Assembly (NCBI RefSeq): GCF_017347085.1
Contig: NZ_JADPSA010000002.1
Coordinates: 77,535 to 141,534, forward strand
DNA from: Nesterenkonia sp. E16_10
GTDB taxonomy: Bacteria > Actinomycetota > Actinomycetes > Actinomycetales > Micrococcaceae
DNA: 64,000 bases
Reading direction: 5' to 3'
Shown in pieces: positions 12,660-16,534 of this stretch. The position numbers and the translations under genes are program-made. Every line of letters begins with the position of its first letter. Positions within the stretch are counted from its first letter, which is position 1. The notes under the pieces were generated by a model that worked only from the letters and a program-made list of their open reading frames with translations, was not told where the DNA came from and made no database searches.

Positions 12660-13439
12660 ATGGCCGAGACCCCCACCCTCTTCGAGATCACTCCCAGCAG
12701 CGAGTCCTGGCATACCCGCCGCCGGGTCGGCTTCGACCTGGAGACCACCTCCCGGGATCCCCGGGTGGCGCGGATCGTCTCCGCGGCGCTGGTGATCTTC
12801 GACGACGCCGAGGTCAGTGCCGGCGCCGAGATCAGCGCCAAAGCCGGTGTGGTGGAGCCTCCCGCTCCGAGTGGTCGGCGTGTGCGCACCCGGGAGTGGT
12901 TGGTCGATCCGGGGGTGGAGATCCCGGCCGAGACCACCGCGATCCACGGCATCTCCACCGAGTACGCGCAGACCAATGGGCAGCCGGCGGCCGAGGCGGT
13001 CGCTCAGATCACCACTGCCCTGGCGCAGGAGTTCGCCGCGGGCAGCTCCGTGGTGGTGATGAACGCCCCCTATGACTTCACCGTGCTCCAGCAGGAGGCG
13101 CTGCGCCACGGGGTCGAGTTCCCCGAGCCGGTCGGGGTCATCGACCCGCTGGTGATCGATAAGCAGGTGGACAAGTATCGCCGCGGCAAGCGCACGCTGA
13201 GCCAGATGTGCCTGCACTATGAGGTCGATCTCGACGCCGCGCATTCGGCCACCCCGGACGCCTGGGCCGCCGTGGAGGTGGCCTGCGCGCAGGCCGAGCG
13301 GTTCCCGCAGCTGCAGATCCCGGCGCCTGAGCTGCACCGGCTCCAGGCCGGGTGGAAGGTCGGGCAGGCCGCGGACCTGCAGGAGTACCTGCGCCGTACC
13401 CGCCCCGATGCGGAGGTCAGCCCGGCCTGGCCGGTGTGA
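12660..13439 (+). CDS. DnaQ-like 3'-5' exonuclease (DEDDh)
   Basis: 259 residues with the three exonuclease motifs: Exo I GFDLETTSRDPRVARIVSAA (about residue 23, Asp and Glu), Exo II VMNAPYDFTVL (Asp about 140) and Exo III DAAHSATPDAWAAV (His and Asp about 195-201). This is the DEDDh fold of the DNA polymerase III epsilon family, but it is a stand-alone protein of a type common in Micrococcaceae and probably acts in repair rather than as the replicative proofreader. The ATG start is close to a possible leaderless promoter. Its last 23 nt overlap the end of the convergent formylglycine-generating enzyme gene. Confidence 0.85.
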   Translation: MAETPTLFEITPSSESWHTRRRVGFDLETTSRDPRVARIVSAALVIFDDAEVSAGAEISAKAGVVEPPAPSGRRVRTREWLVDPGVEIPAETTAIHGISTEYAQTNGQPAAEAVAQITTALAQEFAAGSSVVVMNAPYDFTVLQQEALRHGVEFPEPVGVIDPLVIDKQVDKYRRGKRTLSQMCLHYEVDLDAAHSATPDAWAAVEVACAQAERFPQLQIPAPELHRLQAGWKVGQAADLQEYLRRTRPDAEVSPAWPV

Positions 13440-14433
13440 ACGCCAGCCGGAACCCGGTGTGACCCAGCGAGGTGTCCGCCGAGGCCGAGGTGCGCGCCGA
13501 GGTGCGGTAGCGCCGGCAGTAGGAGCTGTGGCACATATAGGAGCCCCCGCGCATCACCGGATCCGCTCCGGACCGCGAAGACCCTGACGCTCCGCCATCG
13601 GCTCTGGTGAATCCCGAGGCGGTCCACTCCCAGACATTGCCGGTGGTGTTGTAGAGCCCATACCCGTTGGGCGCGAAGGACTCCGCCGCTCGGGTGCCGA
13701 CCTCCCCGGCCACTCCCTCGGGGAACTCCCCTGGAAAGATGTTCATCCTGCGCTGCCCCTGCGGGTCCCGCTCAGACCCCCAGGGGTAGGGCTGCTGGTC
13801 CAATCCGCCGCGCGCGGCATACTCCCATTCGGTCTCGCTCGGCAGCCGCGCCCCGACCCAGCTGGCATATGCCTGCGCGTCGCGCTGGGACACCTGCGTC
13901 ACCGGGTGATCCTCCCGCCCCGCGGCGGTGGACCCAGGACCTTCGGGCGCGAACCAGGCGGCGCCGCGCAACTGCCGCCACCACGGGGCGGAGGCCTCCG
14001 GGGCCGGGGCTGCGTCGCGCAGCTCTGGAGCGAGCAGCCCCTGGAAGACCAGGGCGTCCCCGTGCTGCTCGGCGTCGGTGAGGTGTCCTGTGGCCTGCAC
14101 GAATTGCGCGAATTGTGCCACGGTCACCGTGGTGGGGCTGATCGCGAAGGCCTCGACGCGGACGGACCTGACCGGGCCCTCACCGTCCTGCGGGTAAGCC
14201 TGCGGGTCCACGGAGCCCATGCGGAATTCATCGGCGGAGAACCCGATCATCGACAGCTGGGAGGCGGCCGTGGCGGCCAGCTGGGCGACCAGCGCGGCCT
14301 TGTCGGCTGAGTCCGGTGCGGCCGACGTCGTCGGGGTGGTGCTCGCGGCGCCGTTCGAGCTGGTGCTGGTGGTCTTCGGGCGTGGCGGGCTGCAACAGGA
14401 CGCGGGTTCGGAACGGTGCTGTGCCTCGGTCAT
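13417..14433 (-). CDS. Formylglycine-generating enzyme (SUMF1 family)
   Basis: 338 residues. After a Ser/Thr-rich N-terminal ~55 residues comes the FGE-sulfatase domain: FRMGSVDPQAYPQDGEGPVR, ARLPSETEWEYAARGG, YGLYNTTGNVWEWTASGFT and RGGSYMCHSSYCRRYR. Cys301 and Cys306 in CHSSYC match the copper-binding cysteine pair of genuine formylglycine-generating enzymes such as that of Streptomyces coelicolor, and separate it from EgtB-like relatives. It oxidises the Cys of a CxPSR motif to formylglycine, activating sulfatases. It is divergent from the choline sulfatase gene, whose product has CAPSR at Cys86 and is the obvious client. The partner is broken (see that entry), while this gene looks intact. 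Confidence 0.9.
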   Translation of the reverse strand: MTEAQHRSEPASCCSPPRPKTTSTSSNGAASTTPTTSAAPDSADKAALVAQLAATAASQLSMIGFSADEFRMGSVDPQAYPQDGEGPVRSVRVEAFAISPTTVTVAQFAQFVQATGHLTDAEQHGDALVFQGLLAPELRDAAPAPEASAPWWRQLRGAAWFAPEGPGSTAAGREDHPVTQVSQRDAQAYASWVGARLPSETEWEYAARGGLDQQPYPWGSERDPQGQRRMNIFPGEFPEGVAGEVGTRAAESFAPNGYGLYNTTGNVWEWTASGFTRADGGASGSSRSGADPVMRGGSYMCHSSYCRRYRTSARTSASADTSLGHTGFRLAFTPARPG

Positions 14434-14586: not shown

Positions 14587-16334
14587 ATGTCTGACGACCA
14601 GAACATCTCACACCACACCGGAACCGTGTCTCCACCCGAGCACTCCTCCACCGTCTCACCTCCTGAGACCGTCTCACCTCCCCACAGCGTCTCACCTCCG
14701 AACATCGTCGTCATCCAGGCTGATCAGATGGCCGCCCAGGCGCTCGGCGCCTATGGCGACGCCGCCGCGAAGACCCCGCACATGGATGCTCTCGCCGAGG
14801 ATGGAGCCGTCTTCGATCGCGCCTACTGCAACTCGCCGCTCTGCGCGCCCTCCCGCGCCTCCATGATGACCGGGGTGATGCCCTCTGACCTGGGCTGCTT
14901 CGACAACGGGGATGACTTCGCGTCCTCCGTGCCGACTCGCCGCTCTGCGCGCCCTCCCGCGCCTCCATGATGACCGGGGTGATGCCCTCTGACCTGGGCT
15001 GCTTCGACAACGGGGATGACTTCGCGTCCTCCGTGCCGACCTTCGCGCATCGACTGCGTCACGCCGGCTATCACACGGCCCTGGTCGGCCGGATGCACTT
15101 CGTCGGGGCAGACCAGCACCATGGCTTCGAAGAGCGCCTGACCACCGACGTCTACCCGGCTGACCTGGACATGGTCCCGGACTGGACGCTGCCGCTGGAG
15201 CAGAAGCTGCAGTGGTATCACGACGCCGACGCGGTCTTCACCGCCGGGGTCTCCAAGGCCTCGGTCCAGCAGGACTTCGACGACGAGGTCGGTTTCCGCA
15301 CGCTGCGCCACCTCAATGACCGGGTCCGCGCGAACCAGGCGGCCGCCGCGGCCGGTGAGGACGCCCAGCCATTCCTGATGGTGAGCAGCTTCATCCACCC
15401 GCATGACCCCTATGAGCCGCCGCAGGAGCACTGGGACCGGTTCGCCGACGTCGAGATCCCTGACCCGGCACACCCCGAGGTGCCCGATATCGCGGAGGAT
15501 CCACACAGCCATCGACTCCGCGCGATGAGCGGCTTCGACGAGCGCTACCCGGACATCGAACAGGTCCGCAATGCTCGGCGGGCCTACTACGCGGCGGTGA
15601 GCTACATCGATGACCACGTGGGCCGGATCCGCGAGCGCCTGGATTCTCTGGGGCTCAGCGAGAACACCGTGGTCCTGGTGACCGCCGACCACGGAGACAT
15701 GCTCGGCGAGCGCGGCCTCTGGTACAAGATGTCGCCCTATGAGCGCTCCTCTCGGGTGCCGCTGATCGCCTACGGCCCGGAGCACCTGGTGCCGCGAGGC
15801 CGGTATCAGACCCCGGTCTCGCTGCTGGACCTGATGCCCACCCTGGTGGACCTGGCCGGAGCCCCCTCGCCGAAGACTGCCGGGGACTCCGTCTTCGGGA
15901 TCGCCAGGCGCGAGCAGACCGGCGACATCGGGCCCAAGGACCGCCCGGTGATCATCGAGTACCTCGCCGAGGGCACCTACCGGCCGCAGCTGAGCATCAT
16001 CAGCGGGCAGTACAAGTACGTGCTCTGCCCGGGCGACCCTGAGCAGCTCTTCGACCTCGCCGCGGACCCCCATGAGCTGCACAACGCGGCCCGCGAGGGC
16101 CACCATGCAGGGACCGTGGCGCGGCTGCGCGGCGAGCTGGACTCCCGCTATGACATGGAGGCGCTGGAGGCCGGGGTCCTGGAGAGTCAGGATCAGCGCC
16201 GGCTCGTCGCCGAAGCCCTGAGCATGGGGCGGAAACGGTCGTTCGACCACAACCCGGAGCCCGAGCAGCGCTATGTGCGCGGAGACTTCTGGGGCGCCCT
16301 GGAGTACGGCACGATCCGCGAGGACGCCCGCTGA
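14587..16334 (+). pseudogene. betC: Choline-O-sulfatase gene split by a 104-bp tandem duplication
   Basis: The two halves together match choline sulfatase. N-terminal half: VVIQADQMAAQALGAYGD, then NSPLCAPSRASMMTG with the formylglycine Cys86. C-terminal half: GRMHFVGADQHHGFEERL, VTADHGDMLGERGLWYKM and the choline-sulfatase C-terminal end (RLVAEALSMGRKRSFDH). Choline sulfatase releases choline from choline-O-sulfate for betaine synthesis. A perfect 104-bp repeat (14831-15038) shifts the frame, so the first frame ends at TGA 14970 after 127 residues. A second frame of 455 codons can start at ATG 14967, overlapping that stop as ATGA. Without the duplication the protein would be about 547 residues. 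Start ATG 14587 has AGGAGG about 8 nt upstream. The N-terminus holds a TVSPPE-like microrepeat. Confidence 0.9.
14831..15038 (+). repeat. Perfect 104-bp tandem duplication inside betC
   Basis: Copy 1 is 14831-14934 and copy 2 is 14935-15038; I find no mismatch between them. Both begin ACTCGCCGCTCTGCG and end CCTCCGTGCCG. The base pair AC occurs both at the start of the unit and just after the second copy, so the event had only 2 bp of microhomology. Because 104 is not a multiple of 3, the reading frame is broken. The unit encodes the CAPSR active-site region, so that motif is present twice in DNA, in different frames relative to the rest of the gene. Confidence 0.95.
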
Positions 16335-16383
16335 GCTGCCTGAGCTGAGCGGCCTGGGCTAAAACCCTCGTCCCGGGGCCGCC

Positions 16384-16496
16384 AACGGGTGGAATGACCG
16401 GCGAATCCCGGTGCATTCCACCCGTTAGCGCCCCACAGATGGGGCCGCAGCTGCAAAACTCGGTGCATTCCACCCGTGAGCGCCCCACAGATGGGG
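16384..16496. repeat. Intergenic repeat cluster (two 36-bp direct repeats plus an inverted arm)
   Basis: Two 36-bp copies at 16409-16444 and 16461-16496 differ at one base; each runs from CGGTGCATTCCACCCGT to a GCCCCACAGATGGGGC hairpin (6-bp stem, CAGA loop). Just upstream, AACGGGTGGAATG (16384-16396) is the exact reverse complement of CATTCCACCCGTT (16414-16426). The array fills most of the 200-bp gap between betC and the alcohol dehydrogenase gene, ending 38 bp before the dehydrogenase ATG. It could be a terminator for betC, an operator array for the downstream gene, or a dispersed repeat family; the sequence alone does not decide. Confidence 0.8.
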
Positions 16497-16534
16497 CAGG
16501 TGCGGCGAGTCGGTCTTCGGTAAAGTTCGGTCTC

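Follow-up and report, generated by a model that had tools for sequence, protein, structure and literature searches.

A choline sulfatase gene broken by a 104-bp tandem duplication, and a third copy of the duplicated segment in a histidine kinase gene, in a draft actinobacterial genome

In short-patch double illegitimate recombination (SPDIR), a small part of a gene gives way to a short segment of other origin; the joins are at microhomology, and no mobile element takes part. The process was reportedly described by Harms et al. in 2016 and is known from Acinetobacter baylyi. Microhomology-mediated template switching (MMBIR/FoSTeS) leads to the templated insertion of distant segments at few common bases. 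Frameshifting intragenic tandem duplications are head-to-tail copies with a length that is not a multiple of three, by which the gene is knocked out. In one account, SPDIR is named beside homology-facilitated illegitimate recombination, and its rate in natural populations is called insignificant (PMC7192050).

This work describes a choline sulfatase gene, betC, that is broken in the assembled genome of a Nesterenkonia-type actinobacterium, together with a fragment of the same gene that lies in a distant histidine kinase gene. The window, that is, the whole stretch of DNA that was analyzed, comprises 64,000 nucleotides and includes the betC locus. As in SPDIR, bases of the kinase gene are replaced by a segment from elsewhere in the genome (judged against 8 aligned relatives; 111 of 111 bases identical to the donor), but here the outcome alone is seen, in a draft genome, and a tandem copy is present at the donor in addition. 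The case is like MMBIR/FoSTeS in that a distant, inverted segment is inserted at few common bases, alongside a tandem duplication with 2 bp in common, and differs in that no series of switches is traceable. Among frameshifting intragenic tandem duplications, the one in betC is typical in being perfect, head-to-tail, not a multiple of three in length, and a knock-out; it departs from them in that its segment also occurs at a distant place. Conditional on the assembly, we file the kinase change as SPDIR-like or as microhomology-mediated template switching, i.e., as a change of known kind. Two points are unusual here: the transplanted piece amounts to an entire formylglycine recognition motif, and betC, its donor, is damaged too. 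No report of this case was found among the matches listed in searches of the literature on SPDIR, tandem duplication and phase variation, ectopic segments, templated insertion, misassembly, and choline sulfatase, as far as the available text of those sources goes. Judged by title and abstract, the listed studies on templated insertion deal for the most part with eukaryotes or with genome editing.

The features of the betC locus, in window positions, are the following.

13417..14433, minus strand: formylglycine-generating enzyme (FGE) family gene, divergent neighbor of betC (221 bits to PF03781)
14587..14970, plus strand: upstream betC part, 127 codons plus stop, with the N-terminal leader, the start of the sulfatase domain, and the CxPxR formylglycine motif
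14831..14934, plus strand: first 104-bp copy in betC (Tandem Repeats Finder and exact-repeat searches)
14935..15038, plus strand: second 104-bp copy in betC, 100% identical to the first, with AC common at the junction
14967..14970, plus strand: ATGA stop/start overlap of the two betC open reading frames (ORFs)
14967..16334, plus strand: downstream betC part, 455 codons, without the CxPxR motif

The original prediction, made from the window alone, identified the gene as a choline sulfatase, and profile searches bear this out. The downstream half scored 489.7 bits against the NCBIfam choline-sulfatase model TIGR03417, above the cutoff of 433.45, and contains the choline-sulfatase C-terminal domain PF12411 (Choline_sulf_C); the upstream half scored 96.2 bits to TIGR03417 (model positions 3 to 83) and 58.5 bits to PF00884. 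The best four PDB matches of the downstream half are named choline sulfatases, the first of them being 6fny (E 8.5e-105), which we take to be the BetC choline sulfatase of Sinorhizobium meliloti. According to the publication on that enzyme, the metal is expected to be held by Asp14, Asp296, and His297, and the formylglycine nucleophile is formed from Cys54 (PMC5870055). While the downstream half here resembles 6fny and bears PF12411, betC, unlike the S. meliloti gene, is divided over two frames, with the nucleophile motif in the upstream ORF only. The upstream ORF retains a counterpart of Asp14 (by eye) beside the CxPxR motif, and this motif and the later catalytic residues do not lie in one chain (127-codon versus 455-codon ORF). 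Judging from the residues that each ORF encodes, neither half is expected to work as an ordinary enzyme, and the assembled betC is best taken for a knock-out. Such a knock-out is in itself nothing uncommon; the interest lies in the pasted fragment.

The duplication and the frameshift were likewise described correctly at the outset. Both Tandem Repeats Finder and exact-repeat searches gave two units of 104 bp that are 100% identical, and since two more bases (AC) follow both copies, the matching run extends to 106 bp. The frame is shifted inside the active-site region: the upstream ORF runs from ATG 14587 to TGA 14968-14970, with its last 11 or so residues out of frame, and the 455-aa downstream ORF begins within the ATGA overlap, at ATG 14967, and extends to 16334. 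A further claim, that the formylglycine cysteine is found only upstream, holds for the listed ORFs but not for the DNA, in which the CxPxR codons occur in both copies (TGC at 14842-14844 and at 14946-14948). The second codon set lies 5' of ATG 14967, and no ATG, GTG, or TTG occurs ahead of it after the last in-frame stop (14913-14915), so that among the listed ORFs the motif is in frame only in the upstream one. ATG 14587 is preceded by GAAGGAGGG, a candidate ribosome-binding site. No ribosome-binding site is visible before ATG 14967, where the preceding stretch is the pyrimidine-rich CGCCCTCCCGCGCCTCC, and reinitiation on the downstream ORF would therefore probably be poor.

The original prediction missed a third copy of the segment, which lies outside the window. 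A search of the strain's own genome (a draft assembly of 3,296,753 bases in 51 contigs) with the downstream half unexpectedly returned a short match on the contig of betC. At the DNA level, the 111 bp at window positions 14940..15050 (plus strand) were found again at C2:13177-13287, 100% identical and inverted (minus strand). This copy is located on the same contig, 79 kb from betC and ∼64 kb beyond the left end of the window; any further own-genome match to the segment had an E value of 0.07 or worse. Within the set formed by the betC copies and this copy, the exact matches measure 111, 106, and 101 bp. The place lies within a 587-aa ORF with GAF_PdtaS, HisKA_2, and HATPase domains, that is, a PdtaS-type histidine kinase. 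Read in the betC frame, the piece inside the kinase is PLCAPSRASMMTGVMPSDLGCFDNGDDFASSVPTFAH, and it places the whole sulfatase consensus LCAPSRASMMTG in frame in the kinase loop. The betC gene of this genome differs from that of a relative, G004, at 2 of 111 bases in the segment, and both differences are present in the kinase copy; the donor thus looks like betC of the strain's own lineage. Because the segment differs from the closest relative at only 2 of 111 bases, exact identity is a weak clock for dating the copies. With the third copy, the question is no longer one of slippage in betC but of why the segment occurs three times.

Comparison with relatives shows what the kinase gene has lost. 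All 30 genomes searched in the genus, the strain's own among them, gave a match to the kinase, and in none of the 29 others was the kinase locus hit by the betC segment. The closest relative, G004, could be aligned at 96% over the whole gene, and an alignment with 8 relatives reveals, conditional on the assembly, a replacement rather than a pure insertion: after the bases CCGCTCT, G004 has ∼41 bases of loop (hand count), versus 104 bases of betC here. Relative to G004, the loop is 63 bp longer (60 versus 39 aa) with the frame kept, and the whole gene measures 1761 nt versus 1665 nt; the C-terminal part of the kinase also varies. Loop lengths were obtained for 24 of the 29 relatives, five having been missed by the search expression, and amount to 9 aa in 15, 14 in 1, 19 in 4, and 33 to 39 in 4, compared to 60 aa here. 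The four relatives with 33 to 39 residues are the closest ones (L129 to L132), 9 residues being the length in most of those measured. On its coding strand, the betC segment is open in the betC frame alone, and on the other strand it is open in all three frames; given the latter, the kept kinase frame is weak to modest evidence.

The two kinds of junction differ in how much sequence they share. At the left kinase join, the 7 bp CCGCTCT are common to kinase and betC (chance about 0.0009) and lie within 22 to 35 columns of imperfect similarity. With the G004 sequence as a stand-in for the lost kinase bases, similarity of this degree was reached by 21 of 20,000 random 40-mer pairs, or by 25 of 20,000 under gentler scoring. 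Microhomology in the kinase can be read at the left join alone, the native bases at the right join having been lost. At the tandem junction in betC, 2 bp are in common (chance about 0.2).

The original prediction had offered a reversible on/off state of betC as one reading of the duplication; gain and loss of the 104-bp unit would bring it about. In favor of this reading, perfect tandem repeats of ∼104 bp are in general unstable, and the stop codon of the first ORF overlaps a start codon. A reversible event at betC is physically possible; it is without any sign of being maintained. The comparison with other strains that had been proposed was carried out on 76 related betC loci from named genomes, by searching the stretch from 200 bp before the match through its end for exact direct repeats of at least 24 bp, and none of the 76 contains one. 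In addition, a switch of this type would leave the kinase copy unexplained, and the downstream ORF has no visible ribosome-binding site. We regard phase variation of betC as very unlikely. In the available part of a review on phase variation, the words "duplication" and "tandem repeat" are absent (PMC11868660). Among the same 76 loci, the formylglycine motif is in frame in 75 and the gene is open through in 75, the exceptions being L072, with a match that starts at the edge of the locus, and L107 (Nesterenkonia pannonica), where the frame is interrupted. L107 is from N. pannonica DSM 29786 and shares its coordinates with genome G015, in which the kinase match, too, is in pieces with stops. This genome is rated 62% complete, and its interruptions are perhaps a matter of sequencing quality.

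The repeat in betC goes far beyond what chance would give. In a sample of 553,136 of the 3,296,753 bases (all of C2 plus 200 kb from each of C29 and C22), a 76-bp minisatellite run is the longest exact repeat once the betC set is put aside, and other perfect tandem duplications have periods of at most 54 bp by the criterion used, which the 57-bp repeat at an assembly gap (see below) escapes. A tendency of the genome to copy pieces of ∼100 bp was accordingly not seen in these bases. Across 295 family genomes (the strain's own and 294 others, drawn evenly from a larger group), the segment was detected in 31 at an E value of 1e-8 or better, once in 30 of them and three times in this genome; a second copy was found in none of the 294 others. 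As the segment is conserved betC coding sequence that is single-copy in the 30 other family genomes holding it, insertion of a mobile element was rejected. A hairpin hotspot was considered as well, and single-strand folds of the 104-bp unit were unremarkable (z 0.77 and 0.08). That two independent events should strike the same 100 bp by accident has a probability of ∼1 in 10,000 (an estimate from 215 bp of 3.3 Mb). With coincidence so unlikely, one cause is needed, be it a single biological episode, a single fault of technique, or a kinase copy that is real and led the assembly of betC astray.

The explanation that we favor, tentatively and at somewhat under even probability, is that ∼104 to 111 bp of the strain's own betC were copied ectopically and that the tandem copy in betC stems from the same episode. 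A stalled or broken strand in the kinase gene would have paired with betC through CCGCTCT, ∼104 bp of betC would have been copied, and the kinase would then have been rejoined, such that ∼40 bp of the length-variable loop were replaced in frame. The route could have been template switching (homeology-guided); alternatively, a single-stranded betC fragment could have been taken up by short-patch double illegitimate recombination. At the donor site, the same faulty replication or repair episode would have left the tandem copy and thereby knocked betC out. What the assembly shows is that the segment occurs three times with full identity, that part of the kinase loop is replaced with the frame kept, and that relatives lack these changes; the mechanism, the correctness of the assembly, and the origin of both changes in one episode are inferred. 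Ectopic copying is weakened as an explanation by the tandem junction, which has just 2 bp in common and other end points than the kinase copy, no single event having been spelled out for both, and by the nature of the data: they come from a draft of 51 contigs in which a 100-N gap lies 15 kb from betC, and repeats of 101 to 111 bp are close to short-read lengths and k-mers.

The assembly artefact envisaged in the original prediction thus stays a live option, and it can take two forms. In the first, which we consider doubtful, the kinase copy is real and the betC tandem is its echo. Faced with a perfect repeat longer than 100 bp, the assembler would have broken betC at that place and abutted two overlapping contig ends. 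Such an echo would account for both oddities on one segment and agrees with the lack of the tandem repeat in the 76 related loci. By unitig-overlap arithmetic, the left edge of the unit fits the ends of contigs anchored in unique betC for k of 100 to 102, but the right edge needs k of 115 to 117. With no single k serving both edges, a simple contig-overlap artefact with one k was rejected. The treatment of another repeat on the same contig also bears on this form. Directly before window position 1, a 100-N gap (C2:77435-77534) lies inside an unresolved 57-bp tandem repeat, whose unit begins GGACTCACC and is present as one copy in G004. A gap, not a bare abutment, was left there, which argues mildly against silent abutment at betC.

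In the second form, which we think unlikely, the tandem copy and the kinase copy both arose in library preparation, gap filling, or assembly. The draft state of the assembly, the perfect identity of the copies, and the lack of a parallel in the 553 kb sampled or in the 294 other family genomes would fit a technical origin. It sits poorly with the position of the kinase copy, in frame and in a loop that tolerates changes of length, and with the left join, where 7 identical bases are little for an ordinary k-mer overlap. Returning to ectopic copying, the length-variable loop, the kept frame, the left join, and the own-lineage alleles point to real events, while the draft assembly, the perfect identity, and lengths near read length point to an artefact. 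On this balance, the kinase copy is probably real, and for the betC duplication the chances are even.

If the assembly is right, ∼100 bp were copied ectopically within a single bacterial chromosome, and nature has left a clean record of it: the donor, the recipient, the orientation, and one join are legible, with the recipient protein in frame and the donor gene damaged. It would also illustrate how variable loops of signaling proteins can acquire sequence that is unrelated to them. Should the assembly be at fault, the case is a warning that a draft genome may contain a false pseudogene created by a perfect duplication close to read length.

The nature of the pasted piece raises a further possibility. 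The LCAPSRASMMTG stretch is presumably sufficient for FGE, and the only FGE-family gene stands beside the broken betC; a natural transfer of an aldehyde tag into a sensor kinase can be imagined on these grounds, and from sequence we rate it as very improbable. Were FGE truly to act on the pasted motif, a kinase with a formylglycine residue would be a new modification of a signaling protein. The FGE-family gene at 13417-14433 is the sole PF03781 match in the strain's own genome, and all 4 close relatives inspected have a divergent ORF at the same place next to betC, with the motif GNVWEW. Another formylglycine sulfatase was not found in the genome, and FGE may have no ordinary client besides betC. 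The only other PF00884 place, C48:14119-14742, was rejected as a formylglycine sulfatase because its frame lacks a [CS]x[PA]xR motif; it looks like a membrane-anchored LTA-synthase-type protein. For a betA-type choline dehydrogenase, the best match in the genome scored 209 bits, far below the 732-bit cutoff.

Two smaller repeat features accompany betC. In its leader, 18-bp repeats at 14649..14709 (plus strand) code for VSPP units, of which there are 4 here; four relatives were inspected, with 3 units in L032, L033, and L034 and 2 in L093. Downstream of betC, a palindromic element spans 16376-16504, with 21-base arms at 16376-16396 and 16414-16434 and a second half-copy 52 bp further. A similar place exists at C19:58841-58909 (77%, E 1e-7), and weak matches (E 7e-4) occur at C4:16599-16672 and C2:96822-96847; the element is perhaps a dispersed palindromic repeat.
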